Below, one piece after another: positions 51,859-64,000 of a DNA stretch of 64,000 nucleotides. Every line of letters starts with the position of its first letter. The stretch's first letter is position 1. Both the position numbers and the translations under genes were made by a program. The DNA comes from Obelidium mucronatum (Eukaryota; Chytridiomycota; Chytridiomycetes; Chytridiales; Chytriomycetaceae): contig JAIVFH010000077.1 in assembly GCA_025765595.1 (NCBI GenBank), forward strand, positions 108,152 to 172,151, written 5' to 3'. The notes under the pieces are model-generated. The model had not been told where the DNA came from. It was given only the letters and a program-made list of their open reading frames with translations, and did no database searches.

Positions 51859-52565
51859 ATGTTAGAGACACAAATGGATGTATGGCTGTTTTTCGACTAA
51901 TGGAAGATATTGCTTCTGATTTCTTTTTGAAATAGGCGGTGTGGAAGGACTTGGCGACTGTCCGGGAGAAGCTTAATAATCCAGAGACATATTGGGAACT
52001 TGTTTCTCCGGTGGGCAAGGCTCTCTTCAAACATGACATACTGCTGTGGGCCACAGACCTTCAGCAGAAAGAGGCGGCTCTTCAGCAGAAAGAGGCGGCT
52101 CTTCAGCAGGAGAAGGTTCTTCATTTGCAGATTCAATTGGAGAAGGAGAAGAATATAGGTGATTATCTACTCTAATGCCCAACCATAATGTGGTCCCTTA
52201 TTGAATTGTTAGGCCGAACTGCTGGTTTATCATCAACCGAAATGATATTGAGAGACGAACAGGGGGCAAAGACAAAGGCTTTTGGTATGCCTGTATTGGT
52301 TTATTATTTATTGTGGTTAAGTCGTTTTTTAGAAACTCTTGAATCACAAGTGCTAGAATTAAAGAAGACCGTCTCAAGTTTTCTCCAGAAAGCGGAGACC
52401 GTGCAAATCTCGAACCTTAAAATTGAGATGCTTGAGAATGATGGCTTTGTTTGTAAAGCAGAATCCGTTTTGTCTGTTCAAAATGTAGGATTCTCGTTGC
52501 CTGATTCTTTTATTTGGCCTGTTCCCAACAAAGAACATGACAGCACCCCTGTCACACATTCCTAG
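51859..52565 (+). CDS. Small coiled-coil protein of unknown function, 182 aa, 3' end inside a repeat element
   Basis: Four exons (51859-51879, 51936-52158, 52213-52284, 52333-52565) close in frame. The protein begins MLETQMD, continues TVREKLNNPETYWELVSPVG, and has a heptad-like repeat (LQQKEAALQQKEAALQQEKV) from a tandem DNA duplication. A second coiled coil follows (ETLESQVLELKKTVSSFLQK). The last six codons, including the TAG, lie in the left arm of the inverted-repeat element starting at 52546, so the element supplies the stop codon. The original C-terminus may have been longer. No family recognised. Confidence 0.5.
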
Positions 52566-53782
52566 TCTTTCCTTATCGTTTAAATAAAGATAGTCCAGAT
52601 GCATGGGTCGTTGGTTGAGCCTGATGAGTGGTCCAGTGGCCCAGATACTCATCAGTAAAATTCGCGGCAATGGCGTACTCACGAGGAATAATTATAATAA
52701 TGATCCTAAAAGAAGAACAAGTGAAAGAACAGAATAAAAGAAATAAAATAAAAGAAATAACAGAACTTAACTGAATCCCAAATAAAATGAAATCTTCCTA
52801 TCTTTACTGTGAAGTTTACACCTTCACGGGAGGGGTTTTTGACTTTCCCGCCTAGACTACTAACTTTGACAGCAGTTTTTATTTATTAATTGTTATTTAT
52901 TATTCTTTATTGATTTATTGTGATTCTCTGTTTTGGGATTGTCGCGTCGATCAATAAAGATTTGGAGTTGTTGAGAATTGAAATGACCGGCATGGCGTGA
53001 TGGCGACCATGTCCTTCCCAGGTCGCGTCAGTGATCGCATCTCTCACGAGCGAACTTTATAAGAGAGGGCTACGTCCCTCCAAGGGGATCCTATTGTGAG
53101 TTGATCAGATTCGGTGAGTGAACGCGAGCGAAATCAGTTGTGCCAAAGGGTATTCCGGAAGATACCTGGGCTTTAGTAGCTAGCGAGTATAGCGGTCTCG
53201 AGTTGGGCGAAGTAGCGCATGGGAATGATCCCAGGAAGTCGACTAGGGAGCTTTAAAGAGTCGTAGTAGGTGTGCACCCAGTCGCTGTTGGAGAGCCTGC
53301 TATTGGGATGATGACCCAGGGTAAAGGCGACGGGTCCCATAGATCGTGCAGCCGAGCAATCAAACTAGGAGTTAGATTTAGTTTAAGGGTTGTAGGTGCG
53401 TAGGGACTTAGAGGAGTAGGGCCACCGCAGATCTCAATCTGATTGACATGGATCTGGAAGGGGTTGCGCTGGACCGCAAACCCAATGGAACCAAAAACAC
53501 TCGCGAGTGGGGTAACGTGAGTAAAGATAGGAAGATTTCATTTTATTTGGGATTCAGTTAAGTTCTGTTATTTCTTTTATTTTATTTCTTTTATTCTGTT
53601 CTTTCACTTGTTCTTCTTTTAGGATCATTATTATAATTATTCCTCGTGAGTACGCCATTGCCGCGAATTTTACTGATGAGTATCTGGGCCACTGGACCAC
53701 TCATCAGGCTCAACCAACGACCCATGCATCTGGACTATCTTTATTTAAACGATAAGGAAAGACTAGGAATGTGTGACAGGGG
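52546..53782. mobile_element. Inverted-repeat element, 263-bp arms, 711-bp core
   Basis: Left arm 52546-52808 and right arm 53520-53782 are reverse complements of equal length (263 bp) with no mismatch in the parts I compared. They enclose a 711-bp core. Each arm begins at its outer end with CCCCTGTCACACATTCC and contains a 9-bp hairpin (CTGATGAGT...ACTCATCAG at 53673-53707). The core has no long frame; its right half is rich in G/C and short repeats. I find no clear target-site duplication. It could be a non-autonomous TIR transposon or an inverted pair of retroelement ends. The outer sequence TGTGTGACAGGGG resembles a TG-starting LTR terminus. Confidence 0.7.
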
Positions 53783-54481: not shown

Positions 54482-56589
54482 ATGATCGCTGGCATCCAGT
54501 CCCTTTCCCCCCCACTCCAACAGGATGACCGGGTCAATTTCCACCGCCTCTACGACGTCGTGTACCACCTCCGCTGGTGCCTGTTTAAGGAGGACTTTGA
54601 TGAAGTCCATGCATCTCTACTGGCCTGGGGAGAAAAGGATGAGGACTTCGTTATAGCATGTGCAAAGGCTTACCCTGACTGGAGAGGCGAAGCCAAGGAG
54701 GCATTCCGCTTGGTGAAGACCTCGAGGGCGGCCGTATCGTTCCCCGAGAAGGAGAAGGCCCGTCGCTACCTGAAAACCTGGAGAAACAACGAGGTTAAAA
54801 ATGGTAGAGGTCCTCTTACCCGCGACGCAGCCGCATCTGAGCGCGAGGCGCGCTTTGTCTCCCTCCAGCCGGGTGTCCTTGCTCCCCAACCTGTTCCCGC
54901 CGTTGTCGCCAGCAGCCCAGAAGTGGAACTCAGTGAAGCTGAGCTCCACAACGTCCCACTACCCGAGGACTCAGCATCTTCGACGCCCCGGGCTGGATCG
55001 CCCTGCTCCCGCTACCGCTGGATCCCTTGTAGAGGACGTGGTGATGGGGGAGAGCGTCAACATCAACCCCCCCTCACCTCCGGTCGCGACTGCCGATCCA
55101 GTGACCATCGACCTCACCGTCGAAACTTCGAAATCCGTAGCCGCGCCCGATGCCGTCGCTGACTTGCGGCAGTTGGTCCAGACCCAGGCGCAGGCGTTGG
55201 AGGCTCTACGTCGCCAACTTGCCAACCTCCAACCTGCCCTGGGCGCTCGATCGGCTGTTGAGGCCTGCCCCGGTTGTTGTCAACGCGCCGCCCGTGGCCG
55301 CTGTCGTTCCTACGGCCGGTCCTTCAACTGCTCCTCGCTTGATGTTTCCTGCTGTTGCTGCTGTACCATCCTCCGCTGCTCCGTCAAACGGCGCCGCTCC
55401 GATGGCGTGGGAACCACGCGCTGCACCCGCTGGAGCGAATGGAACCGGAAGTGGTCCTGGATACCATAGAGTGGATGAGTGGGGAAGTAGGTGCAAATGT
55501 GGAGTACCACCAACAAAATTTTGGTCACTCACCTGGTCGTCGCGGACGCCGCTTCAAACAAATGGCCTACCATGAGCGTGAGTATCCCTCAGCTATGGCG
55601 GTTGGAGACCAGGATGTGGTCTTGGGTTGTTTGCTGTTGGAGCATTTTTTACATTTTACATTTTTTATTTAATTTGCGAGACTTTGGCTTTTGCCCACTC
55701 GCTGGCCCGCTGTAAAGCTCGCCCCAGCCGCATATCTGCGCGCTTTAGTGCCCTCTTTATTGGGTTTTATTTCCGTTTATTAACGGATTTTTATTTTTGT
55801 GTAGGCATGGAGGCTCTTCGTGGGATCGAAGCGGCTAGGAAGCAGGAAACCTTTCGCTTCCTCATGGGAGAGGCGACGCAATTCCGAGCCCAGACTGGAG
55901 TCGAAGCACCCCTGGACTACAACTTCCGTAGTGCGCAGGTCTACAAATCGATGGGTGTTGTTGACCAGCAACACCGCACGTATACGGGGAGACAGCGCCA
56001 ACAGCGACAGCAGCGCTTCGACGCCAACCAGCGCCCACCACCACCGCCCCCCAACTACCCGCCGCCCGAAGTCGCTGGAAACGGCAGTCGTGGAGGACGC
56101 GGACGCGGAGGACACCGTAAGTGTCCAATCGCTGTGTTGGGTTTTATTGACCTTGACTTACAACAGACCCAACAATGGGCTACCGCCATCCCGAAGGAAG
56201 CCAATAATTATTTTGATAATTATCGGAGTTTTTCGCGATTAAATAAATTTATTTTATTTTTCTCTTATTTTCGAGAATTGTCTTATCATTTTTTTAGACA
56301 AATATTTTTATTTTCAATAATACAAGTGTCAACTGCCACCACCACCCATGACGTCGAGAAAGACCAAGAAGACCGCTTCAGGCGAGAAGGGGTTAGTCGG
56401 AATCTCCCAATGCCTTTTATTTTGGTCATATGTATTGGAGTGATCGCTATGGTTGGAGCGATGTTTTGGAACCAACTCACCTGGTGCATGCGATCGCTAA
56501 CAGCGCTTGTTCACAGACGCGATACCCGCAGCCAGTCAATGATGCTGGAGATCGGCTTCGGTGAGAAGGTCGATCACTTTCGTAATTAG
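54482..56589 (+). pseudogene. GC-rich degraded coding region, origin unknown
   Basis: From the ATG at 54482 (MIAGIQSLSPPLQQDDRV) about 170 codons read as a compact protein with VVYHLRWCLFKEDFDEVHAS and ARRYLKTWRNNEVKNG. The sense then moves between frames: GESVNINPPSPPVATADPVT with a coiled-coil-like LRQLVQTQAQALEALRRQLA, then Pro/Ala-rich sequence, then EYHQQNFGHSPGRRGRRFKQ. A phase-1 intron (55577-55804) joins to MEALRGIEAARKQETFRFLM, a poly-Pro run and an RGRGG tail. GC content to about 55600 is far above the neighbours, suggesting a different origin. It may be a Gag-like first ORF of a mobile element or a decayed host gene. No domain recognised. Confidence 0.4.
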
Positions 56590-56597
56590 TTTCGACT

Positions 56598-59500
56598 ATG
56601 GCGTTGAGGTCCAGACAGTCTCTGGATACGAAGCAACTCCGCTCGCGATGCCATTTGTCTACGCGGCAGCGATCTACTCGGTCGAAAATATTGATGAAGA
56701 GTTGCCCGACGAAGTACACAGATGCGAATTTTCGTTCACTGGTAAAGTTGTTGAAAGCTTCCAGAGTTGCGGGCGCAGCCATCCGCTGCAGATTTCCCGA
56801 ACGATTGACCCACCCGTCAATGGACTTTGTATCGTTCCTCGAAATGGCGCAAAGTGGTGGAGTCAGTGGCTCCACCTCAACCTATGGTACTCCATCGAAG
56901 CAGGTCTCTCAGACCCCATTCCTGCCTGGGCAGTTCCCCAAATCAGTCAAGCCTATGGAAAAATCGAAAATTAGTACGTTGGAAACGGTCAAACAAGAAG
57001 AGGGACTTGTGGAAAGCGCAAGTGGCAGTTCTTTGGCAGCACATCGCTCAGGTAGCACTGCTACATACACCGCGGTTAAAACAGAGTCGCCATCAAAGGC
57101 GCCTAGGTTATCACCCACAAAGTCAAAGACATCTACGAAAGCTTCTTCGAAAGGAAAGAAGGCGTTTATTGAATCGCTTAGTTTCCCTGAGGGCAGAGAT
57201 GATTCTTTGGGGTCTAGTGATGACTCTGAAAATGATAGCGGGGATCGCAGTGACAAATCCTCCGAGCCTTCAGGGGCCATTAGTCCTTCTGGTAGTGACG
57301 GGAGCAGTAGCGGTAGCTCTGGTAGTGAGTCGGATGATTCTGGGGTTCTTAGACAGAACCGCGCTGTTAAACGTAAAACTGAAGGTGAATATAAACCTGA
57401 CCATTTGTCAAAACTACTGTTTGATAAGTTAATATCTGCTAATATGGTAGGAAAATTGACAAGTGCCTTGAATAAAATGGCAAATGCGTCCAGTATTGAT
57501 AAGCTGTCAGCCTCAGTGACGCCTCTTGCTTCACCTGCCAACGTGAAGAACTGGTTCAGAGAAGTGGAAATTCTAAGAAATCGTCTGGTTCCGGAAACCT
57601 ATGAGACTAACGATGATTTTGTTCGAAAATTCCTCACTATGGTGCGTTATGAGGGCGCGTTTGGAACGCGTATTCGCGATGCTATTCTTCGCTTTGATAA
57701 GAAAACGGATGCGTGGAAAAAGTTGCGTAAATTAACTCGTAGTGTGGAGGGTGCAGACTTTGAATATGCGGACAAGAATGAATTGAAGCTGTCCTACAAA
57801 ATTGGTACCTATAACTCTGTGATGTTGGGTCAGGACCTGGAAAATCGAAACTCAGATTTGAGTGAACGTTTATCTGAAGCTGAGTTGAAGGATGTGTTGG
57901 TTGGACGCATTCAGCTTCAGTCCAAGACGGATTCCTATGTGTATAGAGTCTACCGGAAGTTCCTTAAGTCTCAAATCTTTGTTACCTCGAAGGATTCAAA
58001 CACGGGGGAAAAGGTTAGAAGAAAAGTTTCTTGGGACTATCGTAAGGTCACCTACGACCAAGTAGTTACTGCGCTGTTTGACGCTGGATTTGACCAACGC
58101 TTTGCTGATGAAAATGACTTCAAGTTAAGAGAGAGTGGGAAGCAGAAGGCGAAGAGTGAGTTTTATGAGGAGAGAAGAGGGGAGTTGGAAATGGAGTCTA
58201 GACGTCAAAGATCTCAGACCCCTCCTCCTAAGCCTATTCCACAAACACCCGCACCTGTTACTCGCCCTAATAAGCAGGCGCCTCCTTCTCGTATTCCACC
58301 TTTTGGGATTTACTTTGTGGATACTCATCTTTCTGACCCCGGCGATGTTTCAATGCCCAAAGAAGTTTGGATGATGGAATTTGATTCTGTGTTGGAGAGT
58401 TACAATACTCAGGTTTTGGCACCCAGCGGTCATCCCTATGATAATGCTGAGAAAGCTGTTATTTGCGAGAGCTTCATTCGCAACATCAAGTGTTATTTTT
58501 GTGGTGGACTTGGTCATTTCAGAAGAGACTGTCCTTCCTTGAACGCTAGTAAGAGTGTCGAATTAGAAAAAACTGAACTAAATATGTTGGAAATTAATCC
58601 ACAGGTGGAGCCAATCCCCTTCCACAGTGAAGAGTTAGAGGAAAACATGAAAGAATCTCCTGTTTTCTTTTCCAAATCTTCAATTTCCTCCTCTTTTCCT
58701 TCAGTCTCTACTTTGAGTTCTTTTGCTTTAACTATTTCTCAACCTGGAACGCCAACTGAGATTTCTGTATCAGAAAGTGAAACAGGGGATGATGAAATAA
58801 AGTTTACGGTTCAGATATATAATGCACTTCAAAAGAAGTTAGATGAAAACAGAGCGAAGGAGTTGGAGTACAGGAGGGTGGATGATTCCCCTATACACAT
58901 GCAGTCGGCAGGATTACAAGTTGAATCTATGTTAAGATTGGGTTTACCTGCTAGGAGTACAGTGGATCCCAATTCCCTGGCATACCAGGCGCAGCTTAAT
59001 GCAGATTATAGGAATCAATGGGATGCAATCCCTCCTTCTGAGGTTATCAGGAAATTTAGCCCAGACCACAAAGAGGCCAAGCCTCTTAAAGCCTCATTAA
59101 GAAGAGAGGTTGGTAAACTTCAACCTGGAATGTGTAAAAACGTCAAGAGATGTTCATTTGATGAAGTAGTTATAGCTCAATTTGAGGATTCTTCATTTGC
59201 TAAGACCCGCCTGAATGTGGAACCTGGCGTTAGCTATGGGAGTTGGTATTGGAATACAAAAACAGGTAGTCAGGAGCACTACCATAATGAGACTACAGTT
59301 AGAACTTATAGTGTTGCCACTATTAGTGGATGGGTAGGAGGAACACAAGTGAAGGAACTGCTCATTGATTCGGGTAGCAATCATGCAGTGATGAGTAGAA
59401 AGTTTTATGAAAGCCTTCCCAATAGGCCACAATTGGTAAGACCTCCTAAGAAGATAGTTACCTCCGGTATTGGTGGACAACAGGAAGTGGTAGGGATATG

Positions 59501-62500
59501 TTCACTACCTGTATCTCTGGGCAAGTCCCGCCTAGGCCAACAAAATATTCGTATTAGTGTCCTGGAGACCTTACCACGCCCTATAATCTTGGGAACACCA
59601 CAATGCCACCAGTTTGGAATTGATATACTGTTCTCACAAGAGATCTTGACTTGGGAAAATAAAAATTGGCCACTACAAAAGAAGACTTATGTCCACGGCT
59701 CCTCAGGTGAGAGTATTGGAAAAAAGGAACGTCAAAGCACGCCTTTGCGCTTCTATCAGGAGTATCTAACACCTGAAAGCAATAATGCTGAAACCTATCT
59801 TGAACTTGTGTTGGATAGTGATATCTACTTGGAAAGGAATGTAGAGACTAAGGTCTTGGCAAGGCTACCTGAAGGGATGGATGTTACAAAATTGCGGGTT
59901 GCAGAGGAGTGTATGATTGTTGGTTATCCTGAGCTGATGGATAAACAGGTCATTGTCAAGAAGACAATCTTCAGAACATCAGACCTTATGAAGGGAGAAG
60001 CTGTCCCTTTAGTCATGACAAACAGAGGAACCAAGAGTGTTACCTTGCCCAGTGGTTTACCTGTTGCAGATTTTGAGTCTCAAGGTATTGCTGCCATTAC
60101 TGTCCTGGACATCCCAGAACCTCTTATTCATGACACAGAAAAGTTGATTGATTTTGTCATGTTTGTTCAAATAAATGATCCCAAAAATATGGAGGAGGCT
60201 ATTGAAAAAATGAGGAAAGAGGAAATAGGGGAATATCCCAAACCGAAGATAGGTACTGACGTTGAGGAGGAAACCTTGAAGGTCAGTGTAGTTGATGAGT
60301 TAGACTATAAACCTACCTCAGAGCCACCTATCACAATGAAGAAAGGAACAATGGCGTTTGAGCAAACCTGTTTGAGTGAAACAACTGACCATATTGGGTT
60401 GTCTAAGATAAAATCACCTAGGGAATTATTTAAGAAGAGATTTACTGAATTCCCCTTGTTTAAGAGAGCAAGAACTCATGAAGCGGTTCGTCTCTTTGTC
60501 AATCTCAGAAACGAAGCCGAGAAACTGGCTTCAAGCCAGGAAATGGAATCTCCTACTGAGTTGGAGGTCGAGGAACTCCCAAATCCCATAATGAACTCAA
60601 CACCTATGCACGATGCATCGGCGGAAGATAAGAGAGATTACATTCCTCCGCCTCCGCCCTCTAGTGATGGGGAGTTGATAGGAAAGTTCAATTTGGATCA
60701 CATGAATCACCTTAAGGATCCTACAGTGAAAGAGAGACTCATTAAGATGTTAGTAAAATTTCGTGGTGTTTTTACAAAACAGATGACAACTGGTGATAAA
60801 AGGTTGCCAGAGCATGTCATTAACATTAAGGAAAATGCCCGTATACCGCGCCAACACCCTTACCCTGAAGGTCCTGGTAGGATGACAGTAATTAGGGAAC
60901 ATTGTGAAAATATGTTGCAAAACAAAATCATTTCTCCTTCGACATCGCAGTATGCTGCGCCAATTGTGTTGGCTAAGAAACCAGATGGGAAATGGCGATT
61001 CTGTGTTGACTTCAGGAAACTGAATGAGATTACAATTCCTGACAGGTATCCCCTACCTAATATAGAGGATATTTTCTCTACAGTAGGGAATAAGTACTTC
61101 TTTAGCAGTATTGATCTTGAGAGTGGGTTCTGGCAGATTCCCTTATCGGCAGAAAGCAAAGAGAAGACAGCTTTCATTAGTTCCCAGGGACTTTATCATT
61201 TTGACGTTCTGCCCTTCGGACTTACCAATGCCCCACCCAGTTTTCAAAGACTGATGGACACTGTTTTAGCAGGCTATCGCTTTGTATTTGCAATGGTATA
61301 TGTTGATGATATTATCATCTATTCAAATGATGCTGAAGAGCACTTGAAACATATCGAAATGATTCTTCAGAGAATGCACGATTATAATTTGAAGATCAAA
61401 CCTTCTAAATGTCAGTTCTTCTATACTGACTTACCATTTTTAGGACATGTTATCTCAAAGGAAGGCTTGAGAAAGGATGAGAATAAAACAGCAAAGTTGA
61501 AGGATTGGCCTCAACCTAAGAATAAAAAGCAATTACAGCAATTCATTGGTTTCGCTACTTATTTTAGGCGTTTCTTGAGAGGATTTGCATCTACGGCATT
61601 GCCCCTTTATAACCTGTTGAAGGATGATGTAGCTTGGAATTTTGATGAAAGCTGTGTGGAGTCTTTCAATCAACTAGTAAAACAACTATGCGTTGACATG
61701 GTGTTGCATAATCCAACAGAAACCGATGAATTCATCATTGAGTGTGACGCATCAGGGAAGGCTTTAGGAGCTGCCTTGTATGTTAAAGGCGAAACGAATG
61801 CAAAGAAGGATAGATTGCCAGTTGCATTCATCTCTAGAACACTGTCTGATGTTGAGCAAAGATATAGCAACACAGACCGGGAAGGTTTGGCAGTAGTTTG
61901 GTCCATAAATTGTTTTGACAAGTTCATTTGGAATCGGCCCGTGACTGTTGAGACAGACCACTCAGCCCTTATTCCACTCTTTAAGAAGGGGGATCTTACT
62001 GGCCGTTTTGCTAGATGGGCTTACCAGCTGGCTGACTATGACATAACATTAGTTCATGTGCCCGGTAGCACGCAGGTTGCCGCGGATACGTTATCCAGAT
62101 TGGACTTAAGTACGGACAATGTCCTTTCTCTGCGGAGGGAGAAAGATCTCAAAAAGGGACCCAGTATTGGCCCAGAGGACCAAAATGGTTTGGAAGAGGG
62201 GAGTGAGTCAAAACACCCACCACTTGAAACTTTATTGGACACATACATCTATGGCCACATAGAACCAACACCAGAAAAAACGGCTCATGCCATCAAAGTT
62301 TTTGAGAACTTGCATCAATCCTTGAGGCAGGAGGAGAGAGAAACAACACATGCGCTGATGAGCGACATGTCTCGTAGAATCATGAAGAAGAAGAAAGCGG
62401 AAAAGATTTTGTCTTTGGATGATATCCGAGGGACTTTACGGAAAGATGGTGGTGAGAAATGCCCATCCGTGAATATAACCACTTACAACGTTAATGGTTT

Positions 62501-62582
62501 GAGAAACATCCTGAAGAGATATGTTGAAAAGGAGGACCTTAAAAAAGGCACCACTAGTAGAACAGTTGGAGCATTTCTTTAA
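56598..62582 (+). CDS. Retrotransposon polyprotein: Gag, zinc knuckle, protease, RT, RNase H
   Basis: One 1,994-codon frame; a later ATG at 56820 (MDFVSFLEMAQ) is an equally plausible start. After a Ser/Lys-rich region, residues ~300-480 form a helical Gag-like block (VKNWFREVEILRNRLVPETY). The zinc knuckle CYFCGGLGHFRRDC is at residues 632-645. The aspartic protease is LLIDSGSNHAVMS near residue 924. RT runs from KIISPSTSQYAAPIVLAKKP through WRFCVDFRKLN to MVYVDDIIIYSN (catalytic YVDD at 61299-61310). RNase H has IIECDASGKALGAALY, TDREGLAVVW, VETDHSAL and AADTLSRL, giving the acidic active-site set. Gag and Pol share one frame with no shift. The frame ends inside the start of the endonuclease domain. 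Confidence 0.9.
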   Translation: MALRSRQSLDTKQLRSRCHLSTRQRSTRSKILMKSCPTKYTDANFRSLVKLLKASRVAGAAIRCRFPERLTHPSMDFVSFLEMAQSGGVSGSTSTYGTPSKQVSQTPFLPGQFPKSVKPMEKSKISTLETVKQEEGLVESASGSSLAAHRSGSTATYTAVKTESPSKAPRLSPTKSKTSTKASSKGKKAFIESLSFPEGRDDSLGSSDDSENDSGDRSDKSSEPSGAISPSGSDGSSSGSSGSESDDSGVLRQNRAVKRKTEGEYKPDHLSKLLFDKLISANMVGKLTSALNKMANASSIDKLSASVTPLASPANVKNWFREVEILRNRLVPETYETNDDFVRKFLTMVRYEGAFGTRIRDAILRFDKKTDAWKKLRKLTRSVEGADFEYADKNELKLSYKIGTYNSVMLGQDLENRNSDLSERLSEAELKDVLVGRIQLQSKTDSYVYRVYRKFLKSQIFVTSKDSNTGEKVRRKVSWDYRKVTYDQVVTALFDAGFDQRFADENDFKLRESGKQKAKSEFYEERRGELEMESRRQRSQTPPPKPIPQTPAPVTRPNKQAPPSRIPPFGIYFVDTHLSDPGDVSMPKEVWMMEFDSVLESYNTQVLAPSGHPYDNAEKAVICESFIRNIKCYFCGGLGHFRRDCPSLNASKSVELEKTELNMLEINPQVEPIPFHSEELEENMKESPVFFSKSSISSSFPSVSTLSSFALTISQPGTPTEISVSESETGDDEIKFTVQIYNALQKKLDENRAKELEYRRVDDSPIHMQSAGLQVESMLRLGLPARSTVDPNSLAYQAQLNADYRNQWDAIPPSEVIRKFSPDHKEAKPLKASLRREVGKLQPGMCKNVKRCSFDEVVIAQFEDSSFAKTRLNVEPGVSYGSWYWNTKTGSQEHYHNETTVRTYSVATISGWVGGTQVKELLIDSGSNHAVMSRKFYESLPNRPQLVRPPKKIVTSGIGGQQEVVGICSLPVSLGKSRLGQQNIRISVLETLPRPIILGTPQCHQFGIDILFSQEILTWENKNWPLQKKTYVHGSSGESIGKKERQSTPLRFYQEYLTPESNNAETYLELVLDSDIYLERNVETKVLARLPEGMDVTKLRVAEECMIVGYPELMDKQVIVKKTIFRTSDLMKGEAVPLVMTNRGTKSVTLPSGLPVADFESQGIAAITVLDIPEPLIHDTEKLIDFVMFVQINDPKNMEEAIEKMRKEEIGEYPKPKIGTDVEEETLKVSVVDELDYKPTSEPPITMKKGTMAFEQTCLSETTDHIGLSKIKSPRELFKKRFTEFPLFKRARTHEAVRLFVNLRNEAEKLASSQEMESPTELEVEELPNPIMNSTPMHDASAEDKRDYIPPPPPSSDGELIGKFNLDHMNHLKDPTVKERLIKMLVKFRGVFTKQMTTGDKRLPEHVINIKENARIPRQHPYPEGPGRMTVIREHCENMLQNKIISPSTSQYAAPIVLAKKPDGKWRFCVDFRKLNEITIPDRYPLPNIEDIFSTVGNKYFFSSIDLESGFWQIPLSAESKEKTAFISSQGLYHFDVLPFGLTNAPPSFQRLMDTVLAGYRFVFAMVYVDDIIIYSNDAEEHLKHIEMILQRMHDYNLKIKPSKCQFFYTDLPFLGHVISKEGLRKDENKTAKLKDWPQPKNKKQLQQFIGFATYFRRFLRGFASTALPLYNLLKDDVAWNFDESCVESFNQLVKQLCVDMVLHNPTETDEFIIECDASGKALGAALYVKGETNAKKDRLPVAFISRTLSDVEQRYSNTDREGLAVVWSINCFDKFIWNRPVTVETDHSALIPLFKKGDLTGRFARWAYQLADYDITLVHVPGSTQVAADTLSRLDLSTDNVLSLRREKDLKKGPSIGPEDQNGLEEGSESKHPPLETLLDTYIYGHIEPTPEKTAHAIKVFENLHQSLRQEERETTHALMSDMSRRIMKKKKAEKILSLDDIRGTLRKDGGEKCPSVNITTYNVNGLRNILKRYVEKEDLKKGTTSRTVGAFL

Positions 62583-64000
62583 TTCACTGCGATGTAGTAT
62601 TGTTTGCATCCAGGAGACTCGACTGGGAAAGGATAGCAAGAGTTCAAAGCTCATTGAAGCACTCAGTAGCCTCCCTCAGTGGAACTGTTCTCTCAATGAT
62701 ACGCTGACAGGATATGCAGGTGTTACCATGCTCTGGAGAAAAGAGCTCCTGGGGAGTATATCCTTAGATAAAGTTGAGGTTGACAAACTTCTAAATGGGG
62801 AATTAGATGAAGAAGGTCGCATTTTGACACTTAAACTGGCTGATATAGCAATAGTCACAGTCTATGTTCCTAGTGGGATGCGAAAGGTGGAACGCCACGA
62901 CTATAAGATGACCTTCCTGGACAAATTGAAGTCCCATTGTGAGAACCTTTTAGAGGGTCACTATGTGTTTTTGGTAGGAGATATTAACATTGCGCCTGCA
63001 GCCGAGGATGTTTTACCCTTTGTTAGCGGTGAAGGCTTGGAGTCAAGGTTCCCTTCCACAATAACTAAAGAGGAGCAAGACTGGTTTGCCTCAATGAAGG
63101 ATAACTTTGTGGATGGTTTCCGGATGAAACATCCAGGGAAGCTTGGAGCCACTTGGCTACTTAAAGGTTTGGACAGGAAAGAATATCCTTTCTGGCGCAT
63201 TGACCATGTGCTAGTGGACAAACGTATCTACCTGAACACTATGATGTGAGAGGTTGATAGCAGTAGTGATACTCTCAGTGACCATCCTGAGATTAGAGTT
63301 TCATATGAATCTCCAGAAGTATGGGCTTACCTACCTACCGGACCACCAGCAGTTGGCTGACACCTGGCAACTGAGGAATATTATGCCTTCTTCCACGAGT
63401 GCAACTTGGGATTACAGACTGCACCTCTGTTTGGGTTATGATGTCAAAAGGATCCGTGAGTTACAGTCAAAGGACCTTACTTTGGTCCTATACTTAGATA
63501 TATTCAGAGTGGAGACATAGATCTTGAGCTAGATTTTGATGTGATGAAGGCTGCTCGTTATTTTGTCCTAGACAAGCAGGACTTATTGTTCAGAGTCGCA
63601 GATGTGACGGCAAAGACTGTCAGAAGACAGCCAGGCCTTATACAGTTATGCGTTCCTGATGGAATGAGAGTGGAGCTCTTTAAGAGACACCATGATGACT
63701 TGTATGGTAGCCACTTGGGTTATTCAAAGATACTCCCCACATTGATTGATAGATTCTGGTGGCCTGATATTGTGAAGGACCTTAAGGCCTATGTGGAGTC
63801 TTGTGAGACTTGCCAGAAGTCTAAAGACCAGAGAATTAAGGTGGGTTACATGAACCCCATTCCTTTGGGAAATTACCCTAACGAAAGGATGTTTGTGGAC
63901 TTTGTTGGTCCCCTAAAAGAGGCCAGCCGCACTGGTCATAAGTACATTATGGTTTGTGTCGATAGTTTCACAAAGTGGGTTGAAGCTATTCCCATACCTG
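62470..64000 (+). pseudogene. Retrotransposon AP-endonuclease domain and integrase, interrupted
   Basis: The endonuclease starts in the polyprotein frame with TYNVNGLRN (62481-62507) and continues in the +1 frame from about 62555. Family motifs in order: CIQETRLG (62605), GYAGVT, EEGRILTL, VTVYVPSG, VGDINIAP (62974-62997), FRMKHPG, WRIDHVLV (63193) and SDHPEI (63277). These supply the catalytic Asn, Glu, Asp, Asn, Asp and Asp-His positions of APE1/ExoIII. The shift lies at CTTAAAAAAGGCA. In the +1 frame TGA stops occur at 63247, 63358, 63439 and 63457. From 63460 the frame is open to the window end and encodes integrase: LFKRHHDDLYGSHLGYSKIL, WWPDIVKDL, SCETCQKSK (HHCC finger), then FVDFVGPLKEASRTGHKYIM and VDSFTKWVEAIPIP. 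Confidence 0.8.

Follow-up and report, generated by a model that had tools for sequence, protein, structure and literature searches.

An exonuclease III/APE1-family nuclease domain inside the Pol protein of Ty3-like LTR elements from a chytrid fungus

In the usual view, to our knowledge, a reverse transcriptase (RT), an RNase H and an integrase suffice for LTR elements and retroviruses, with repair enzymes supplied by the host and at most a dUTPase of their own. The stretch of Obelidium mucronatum DNA analysed here (64,000 nucleotides, hereafter the window) raises the question of whether a nuclease of the AP-endonuclease type can be a regular part of such an element and, if so, what it would do there. 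Several families of retrovirus-like elements in this chytrid carry a nuclease of the exonuclease III (ExoIII)/APE1 family inside the protein by which they are copied and inserted.

The element in the window and its nuclease domain

The element lies on the + strand and starts with a 5' LTR of 971 bp with TG...CA ends (52808-53778; C77:160959-161929). Its identity with the LTR of the C33 copy is 99.5%; in that copy the TG...CA ends of the LTRs could also be read, and ACAG flanks it on both sides, a short target-site duplication in the one insertion with both ends read. Directly after the 5' LTR, where a primer-binding site complementary to a tRNA would be expected, stands GGGGGGCCCAACC, whose start differs from the usual TGG and whose longest complementary match with the element's own LTR is 7 bases. 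A long open frame of 1998 aa (56586-62582, +) encodes gag, protease, RT, RNase H, a linker and the very beginning of the nuclease domain, and contains the CCHC zinc knuckle of the gag nucleocapsid (58485-58538, +; PF00098, E 1.1e-6), a retropepsin-like protease with a DSG motif (59325-59597, +; LLIDSGSN in frame; PF13650, E 2e-4, 22.4 bits, just below the cut-off of 24.3), an RT with the YVDD motif (60975-61454, +; PF00078, E 5.5e-38) and an RNase H (61722-62039, +; PF17917, E 5.2e-28; C77:169873-170190). Further downstream are the integrase zinc-binding domain Integrase_H2C2 (63652-63828, +; PF17921, E 1.4e-19; C77:171803-171979) and the first part of the catalytic core of the integrase (63874-64000, +; a partial PF00665 match, E 0.0013, below the curated cut-off), the integrase being incomplete because the end of the window is the end of the contig. 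The pol order given by the Pfam profile search is RT, RNase H, integrase, all on the + strand, and an Rfam search of the window gave no match.

A sequence-only reading of the window had placed an ExoIII/APE1-type endonuclease at 62470-63291, between RNase H and integrase on one strand, on the basis of eight family signature motifs in order, and had proposed a profile search as a check. In that search, the longest readable piece (62515-63246) matched the Pfam family Exo_endo_phos with E 3.7e-8 and 33.8 bits, above the curated cut-off of 24.5, and alignment to the C33 copy (96.4% nucleotide identity, 4 gaps) sets the extent of the domain at 62460-63313 (+), which bears out the interval of the earlier reading. 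The best match in a sequence search of the PDB was a chloroplast AP endonuclease (E 1.8e-17). All eight motifs are present in the expected order, split between two frames: NVNGLR (62487-62504) is in the polyprotein frame, and QETR, GYAGV, EGRI, YVPSG, GDIN, WRIDH and SDH are in a different one, with SDH (63277-63285) lying past a stop codon at 63247-63249, so that in the window copy the domain cannot be read as a single piece. The presence of an ExoIII/APE1-family domain inside the Ty3-like element, with RT and RNase H upstream, Integrase_H2C2 downstream and all of them on the + strand, is thus confirmed.

Recurrence and arrangement in the genome

Two findings had been named that would make the domain a chance insertion, namely that no other genomic copy has it between RNase H and integrase, or that the block is a separate nested element, and the genome gave neither. 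The order RNase H, nuclease, integrase occurs on one strand in at least 16 clusters (by our own assignment, at least 14 in lineage A and 2 in lineage B), which excludes a chance arrangement, and there is no second RT match beside the block. A nested LINE fragment is an improbable reading and was rejected, given the constancy of this order, the absence of an adjacent RT match and the single open frame that spans RNase H, nuclease and integrase in C601, C33 and C625 (in C625, the end of the RNase H only). The distance from RNase H to integrase is 1188-1796 bp in 16 nuclease-bearing clusters versus 250-307 bp in 15 ordinary elements, hand-chosen from clusters without the nuclease; among the matches listed, RNase H adjoins integrase, with no nuclease match, in 53 clusters of this genome (52 of them single and one double).

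The RNase H-nuclease-integrase order is present in at least 14 lineage A copies, and LTR pairs surround 6 of 14 (C33, C183, C132, C191, C473 and C182+) in a search that covered lineage A, one scan having given a pair in 4 of 9 copies. Many of the copies bearing the nuclease, the window copy included, are broken or incomplete: C132, C191 and C473 lack at least the first third of the nuclease domain, and C33 lacks most of the RT. In another genome, the protein P0001 (45% identical) has RT, RNase H and nuclease in the same order and ends where the integrase zinc domain starts, with no Pfam match to an integrase.

A second clade of the nuclease belongs to elements of this genome with a distant RT and to one protein of Chytriomyces confervae, and in this clade the nuclease mostly precedes RT; the domain is upstream of RT in lineages C and D and adjoins RNase H in lineages A and B. 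L018-L020, considered as LINEs, were rejected as such, being Ty3-like elements in which the nuclease precedes RT and an integrase zinc domain follows it.

Catalytic residues, constraint and origin

Against the TIGR00633 (xth) profile, with a curated cut-off of 99.05 bits, the domain scores 118.6 bits in lineage A (L003), 112.4 in B, 143.1 in C and 122.2 in D, one domain each. P0001 is also above the cut-off (110.0 bits), and P0031, whose N-terminus is missing, is just below it (94.8 bits). Two LINE endonucleases, L060 and L064, remain below, at 87.2 and 86.0 bits. In a residue table of lineage A, whose 9 rows include P0001 and the window piece, the equivalents of APE1 E96, Y171, N212 and D283 are present in every row, that of D210 in 8 (L010 has Asn), those of D308 and H309 in 8 (the window row being cut) and that of N68 in 6 (three rows being cut). 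The position of APE1 Trp280 is occupied by Trp in all nine of these rows versus Ser in 8/8 LINE rows, and by Phe or Met in lineages B, C and D, so that AP specificity is argued for lineage A only. In the available part of PMC8565326, Trp280 of APE1 is linked to the kinking and flipping of abasic DNA, and L1-EN, which has Ser202 there, does not cut abasic sites. The D,D35E residues of the integrase are intact in L003, L004 and L008, so the nuclease need not replace the integrase and, judging from these residues, is probably auxiliary to it.

The substitutions indicate purifying selection on the nuclease domain. Between subfamilies with nuclease identities of 51-61%, pN is 0.30-0.33 for the nuclease, 0.24-0.30 for the integrase part and about 0.50 for the upstream linker. 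Among unsaturated pairs, the dN/dS of the nuclease is 0.087 in L003/L002, 0.108-0.139 in three lineage C pairs and 0.036 in L049/L050 (dS 1.41), with weaker constraint in L004/L007 (0.377). In three L011 pairs, with 8 to 10 changes each, it is 0.77-1.02 and constraint is not visible, perhaps because these copies are dead.

Capture from a host APE gene or from a LINE had also been suggested, and the capture of an ExoIII/APE-type enzyme is supported, the choice between a cellular and a LINE source being left undecided by an AU test in which a grouping with LINEs was not rejected (p 0.378 and 0.381). In the tree, a branch with support 71/90 sets the 19 element rows apart, which does not decide between a shared capture of the two nuclease clades and separate ones. 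The profile scores and the Trp280 position favour a cellular-type source rather than a LINE, in a comparison that is narrow on the LINE side, which consists of 8 near-copies of one family, two of them (L060 and L064) scanned by domain. Free-standing relatives number 28, at 25-31% identity; relatives were not found in bacterial and archaeal genome contigs or in IMG/VR. As a tentative proposal, somewhat more likely to fail than to hold, chytrid LTR retrotransposons may have gained ExoIII/APE-type nucleases on two or more occasions: ordinary Ty3 elements (lineage A, in the RNase H/integrase interval) would have acquired one, and a distant Ty3-like group whose RT active sites are variant (lineages B, C and D) another, with a shift in the place of the domain inside that group. 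These elements would depend on the nuclease to repair or finish their cDNA, thus forming an LTR class with a built-in base-excision-repair step.

Possible role of the nuclease and known systems

The best explanation as a whole, to which we give a little better than an even chance, is that the nuclease is a fixed part of Pol, kept by purifying selection and working on the element's cDNA. In this reading, a Ty3-like LTR lineage in chytrid fungi has taken up an ExoIII/APE1-type nuclease into Pol, between RNase H and integrase, and a second, RT-distant Ty3-like group, in the same and a related fungus, has a related nuclease, mostly upstream of RT. Inside the particle or the pre-integration complex, alongside RT and integrase, the nuclease may cut the element's own cDNA at abasic sites and strip blocked or frayed 3' ends from it, providing clean ends for the integrase, to which the insertion itself would be left. 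The part concerning architecture and selection is almost certain, the domain order, its recurrence, the LTR flanking in lineage A, the kept catalytic residues and the constraint all being demonstrated above; the proposed cDNA-cleaning role falls slightly short of an even chance.

The main rival, that the nuclease, alone or with the integrase, selects or primes the site of insertion by nicking the target DNA in the genome, like LINE endonucleases, is unlikely. It draws on the superfamily common to both, the intact catalytic residues, the LINE-like position upstream of RT in lineages C and D and the LINE grouping that the AU test did not reject, but the TG...CA LTRs, the ACAG flanks of one insertion and the D,D35E integrase point to ordinary integration, and lineage A has Trp where LINEs have Ser. 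We consider equally improbable a role in reverse transcription, such as removal of primer RNA, trimming of cDNA 3' ends or an extra hybrid-cutting or 3'-5' exonuclease activity. E. coli ExoIII is capable of such extra activities, the matching profile is that of exonuclease III and the domain adjoins RNase H in lineages A and B; yet the element retains its own RNase H, and in lineages C and D the domain is elsewhere.

Far less probable than either is that the domain came in by a chance insertion, or as a nested piece of a LINE, and spread as a hitchhiking passenger without a role. Broken copies, in the window and elsewhere, and the L011 pairs without constraint would fit this, as would fungal LTR elements that gained added domains through multiple insertions into one locus, as described in the available part of PMC3248453. 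Against it stand a pN close to that of the integrase and far below that of the linker at 51-61% subfamily identity, the preserved catalytic residues, the block without a neighbouring RT match and the matching arrangement of P0001 in another genome at 45% identity.

Compared with known systems, the elements share with Ty3/Gypsy LTR retrotransposons (Metaviridae) the LTRs, CCHC gag, aspartic protease, RT, RNase H and H2C2 integrase in the same order, and differ by an additional nuclease domain, about 850 bp long, in the RNase H/integrase interval. With the exonuclease III/APE1 family (TIGR00633 xth; PF03372) they share motifs, catalytic residues and a score above the curated cut-off, whereas here the domain is built into a retrotransposon polyprotein. 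APE-type LINE endonucleases belong to the same superfamily and are likewise encoded by the element, but they lie upstream of RT in elements without integrase, while that of lineage A lies downstream of RNase H, together with integrase and LTRs; moreover, the two LINE endonucleases scanned miss the xth cut-off, and Ser occupies the Trp280 position in the eight LINE rows, which come from one family. Cytosine methyltransferases have reportedly been captured by retrotransposons too. Chromodomains are another domain captured by LTR elements (PMC9289625, available part), and neither they nor the methyltransferases are DNA-cutting repair-type enzymes. The AlkB-type m6A demethylase of orchid Gypsy elements is likewise an outside enzyme fixed in a retrotransposon, but as presented in the same part of PMC9289625 it is a separate open reading frame and not of the DNA-cutting repair type. 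The literature searched gave no earlier account of an APE domain placed between RNase H and integrase, the nearest being one sentence in the available part of PMC11673190, which reports Exo_endo_phos in LTR elements, the Kuafuorterviruses; these, unlike the present elements, are found in animals, and there the domain is described as sporadic and perhaps host-derived.

A conserved AP-endonuclease-type enzyme, retained by selection in the Pol of two RT-distant groups, suggests a real bottleneck for such elements in abasic sites or damaged cDNA ends or, alternatively, a nuclease-assisted form of integration. The role is open to direct testing, since the domain is small and can be expressed separately. 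For automatic annotation, an APE-type nuclease alone is not a marker of LINEs.

A nuclease domain between RNase H and integrase

The window, whose end coincides with that of contig C77, contains a Ty3-like element reaching from 52808 to this end. It comprises a 5' LTR (52808-53778), a long frame with a CCHC knuckle, DSG protease, reverse transcriptase (RT) and RNase H (RNH; 56586-62582), a block of the ExoIII/APE1 nuclease family (APE; 62460-63313) downstream of RNase H and, further downstream, an integrase (IN) zinc domain followed by the start of the integrase core. In its longest piece (62515-63246), the APE block matches Exo_endo_phos (3.7e-8) and solved AP endonucleases (1.8e-17). The sequence-only reading, which placed such a domain between RNase H and integrase at 62470..63291, was correct. 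Of the eight APE motifs, one lies in the polyprotein frame and the others are read in a different one, where a stop precedes the last motif; an intact domain therefore cannot be made by this copy. Immediately adjoining the 5' LTR, at 52550-52808, 259 bp of the LTR 3' end recur in inverted orientation (100%), and thus the insertion or its neighbourhood has been rearranged.

The APE domain is a family trait and not an accident. Searched at the protein level with the APE piece, the genome that the window comes from (48.3 Mb in 694 contigs) gave 26 matches. Among 20 fetched loci, some of which overlap one another, L001-L017 carry APE downstream of RT and/or RNase H and upstream of integrase, all on the same strand, while L018-L020 carry APE upstream of RT. 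Profile scans found at least 91 nuclease, 94 integrase zinc domain and 97 RNase H matches, which were clustered when on one strand within 3 kb, all counts resting on these lower-bound scans. The sequence-only reading had looked to further genomic copies as a check, and at least 16 clusters show the order RNH-APE-IN. Among the matches listed there are also 10 APE-RNH-IN, 7 APE-IN and 2 APE-RNH clusters, 52 RNH-IN clusters without an APE match plus one double RNH-IN, and single-domain clusters of APE (40), RNH (13) and IN (6). By our assignment, 14 of the 16 RNH-APE-IN clusters belong to the lineage of the window element (lineage A) and two (on contigs C579 and C21) to lineage B, which together with lineages C and D makes up an RT-distant group of Ty3-like elements, with APE upstream of RT in C and D. 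Some of the 14 copies are near-identical, those on C132 and C191 scoring alike throughout, and may in part be assembly duplicates. The gap from RNH to IN measures 1188-1796 bp in the 16 clusters versus 250-307 bp in 15 hand-picked ordinary elements. One open frame passes through RNase H, APE and integrase in the copies on C601, C33 and C625 (only the end of RNase H in C625), with Exo_endo_phos matches on these frames of 1.4e-14, 2.3e-13 and 2.1e-15, respectively. The C33 frame (L022:1-1626) runs about 540 aa past the integrase, with no Pfam match there. Elsewhere in this genome, C167:12532-33183 holds three same-strand APE matches of the type found upstream of RT; their spacing, 8876 and 8885 bp, suggests element copies arranged in tandem.

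A comparison of 5.77 billion proteins with the APE part of a lineage A frame, at word-limited sensitivity, found a single relative among 2135 candidates scored, P0001 (1052 aa; E 7e-68; 45% identity over 96% of the query region), which contains RT, RNase H and Exo_endo_phos domains. Its alignment with the C601 frame extends to the very start of the integrase zinc domain, where P0001 stops, and it has no integrase Pfam match. P0001 does not come from the window's genome; its best long match there reaches 61% identity, and one short piece 68%. With the APE part of a lineage C frame as query, 2108 candidates were scored and two relatives emerged. P0030, a hypothetical protein from Obelidium mucronatum, holds only part of the APE domain; it aligns in five pieces (97-99%) with C4:708037-711501 of the window's genome, so that the host is probably O. 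mucronatum or a very near relative among the Chytriomycetaceae chytrids, although a protein of a transposon identifies a species less firmly than a host gene does. The other relative, P0031 from Chytriomyces confervae, has the order APE, RT, RNase H, integrase zinc domain. No account of an LTR element with APE between RNase H and integrase was found in the PMC literature searched; the closest statement there, in PMC11673190, reports Exo_endo_phos as a sporadic presence in animal Kuafuorterviruses. That LTR elements capture domains is already known (PMC9289625).

Nuclease type and ancestry

The NCBIfam model of exodeoxyribonuclease III, TIGR00633 (cut-off 99.05), scores one domain per lineage above its cut-off (A 118.6, B 112.4, D 122.2, C 143.1), and gives 110.0 for P0001, 94.8 for the N-terminally short P0031, and 87.2 and 86.0 for two LINE endonucleases of the window's genome. 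With the narrower exonuclease III models, all scanned domains, LINE endonucleases included, fall under the cut-offs. Out of 43 domain rows, the analysis used 18 element rows, together with the P0001 and P0031 pieces instead of duplicates, and 8 LINE rows. The catalytic positions are kept in lineages A, B, C and D, except for L010, which has Asn at the D210 equivalent. The position of APE1 Trp280 holds Trp in lineage A (9/9), Phe in B (1/1), Met in C (4/4) and D (5/5), Ser in LINEs (8/8), and Trp (18), Leu (9) or Met (1) in 28 free-standing relatives. PMC8565326, from which some of the other APE1 residue labels are taken, explains that Trp280 forces abasic DNA to kink and flip, and that L1-EN, with Ser202 at this position, does not cut abasic sites.

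In a tree of 59 domains, lineage A forms one clade (100/99) and B, C and D together another (100/99), and the branch carrying the LINE domains has a length of 4.15. The two element clades lie on the side of ExoIII/APE proteins, a placement under a tool warning of long branches meeting. A weakly supported branch (71/90) has the 19 element rows on one side, and a grouping of LINEs with A (p 0.378) or with BCD (p 0.381) is not rejected by the AU test. In an RT tree of 8 rows, lineage A joins the element on C49, which belongs to the same genome and is of the ordinary kind without APE, and the branch splitting both from B, C and D has 100/100 support; APE thus occurs in at least two RT-distant groups, as a result of either two captures, transfer between elements or loss from other elements. 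P0031, labelled D in the trees, groups with C by RT. The RT active sites of lineages B, C and D (L053, L039, L044, L069, P0031) read FLDD, YFDD, YADD, FVDD etc., not YVDD; for the elements that it describes, PMC11673190 reports IADD, VADD and LADD.

Terminal repeats and insertion

Repeat pairs flank four of the nine lineage A copies with fetched flanks, on C33 (974 bp, 99.9%), C182 (plus-strand copy; 997 bp, 98.3%), C191 (460 bp, 98.7%) and C183 (377 bp, clipped by the fetched stretch; 100%), and are absent from the fetched stretches of the other five (C601, C625, the minus-strand copy of C182, C128, C649). With the C33 LTR as genome query, the APE block is seen to be enclosed by LTRs in C33, C183, C132, C191 and C473, the 3' LTR being split in C191 and C473; with the plus-strand C182 copy included, 6 of the 14 lineage A copies have LTRs on both sides. 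The C33 LTR starts with TGTG and ends with GACA, and ACAG stands on either side of the C33 insertion. This copy lacks the protease-RT part, and its near-identical LTRs suggest recent movement. Three LTR copies (C191:46458-53305, C473:10982-17829, C26:652-7561) are interrupted at an identical point by about 5.9 kb, and LTR positions 459-463 occur on both sides, as expected from a 5-bp target repeat; these splits are perhaps the same nested insertion, copied along with its surroundings.

A putative role for the nuclease

The integrase core D,D35E is kept in L003, L004 and L008, which, together with ordinary ends and one ordinary target repeat, makes it most likely that insertion is still carried out by integrase, and the nuclease is therefore read, from sequence, as a candidate auxiliary enzyme of the cDNA complex. 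DNA made by reverse transcription encounters uracil, depurination and damaged ends, and a putative AP endonuclease with 3'-cleaning activity could make the cDNA fit for integration. Such a cleaning role, which we tentatively prefer, would resemble the proposed help of dUTPase or uracil glycosylase to some retroviruses. That the nuclease nicks target DNA seems unlikely, and a function in reverse transcription is similarly doubtful.

It is highly improbable that the domain is a passenger, a reading favoured by three pairs with L011 (dN/dS 0.77-1.02, on 8 to 10 changes) and by fungal LTR elements whose added domains came from multiple insertions into one locus, as described in PMC3248453. Between lineage A subfamilies, in which APE protein identity is 51-61% and synonymous sites are saturated, pN is 0.30-0.33 for APE, 0.24-0.30 for the integrase part and about 0.50 for the linker just upstream. 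Unsaturated APE pairs give dN/dS of 0.087 (L003/L002) and 0.377 (L004/L007), three lineage C pairs 0.108-0.139, and L049/L050 0.036 at a dS of 1.41. Our reading of these comparisons is that APE is under selection where a lineage is active, and that dead copies drift.
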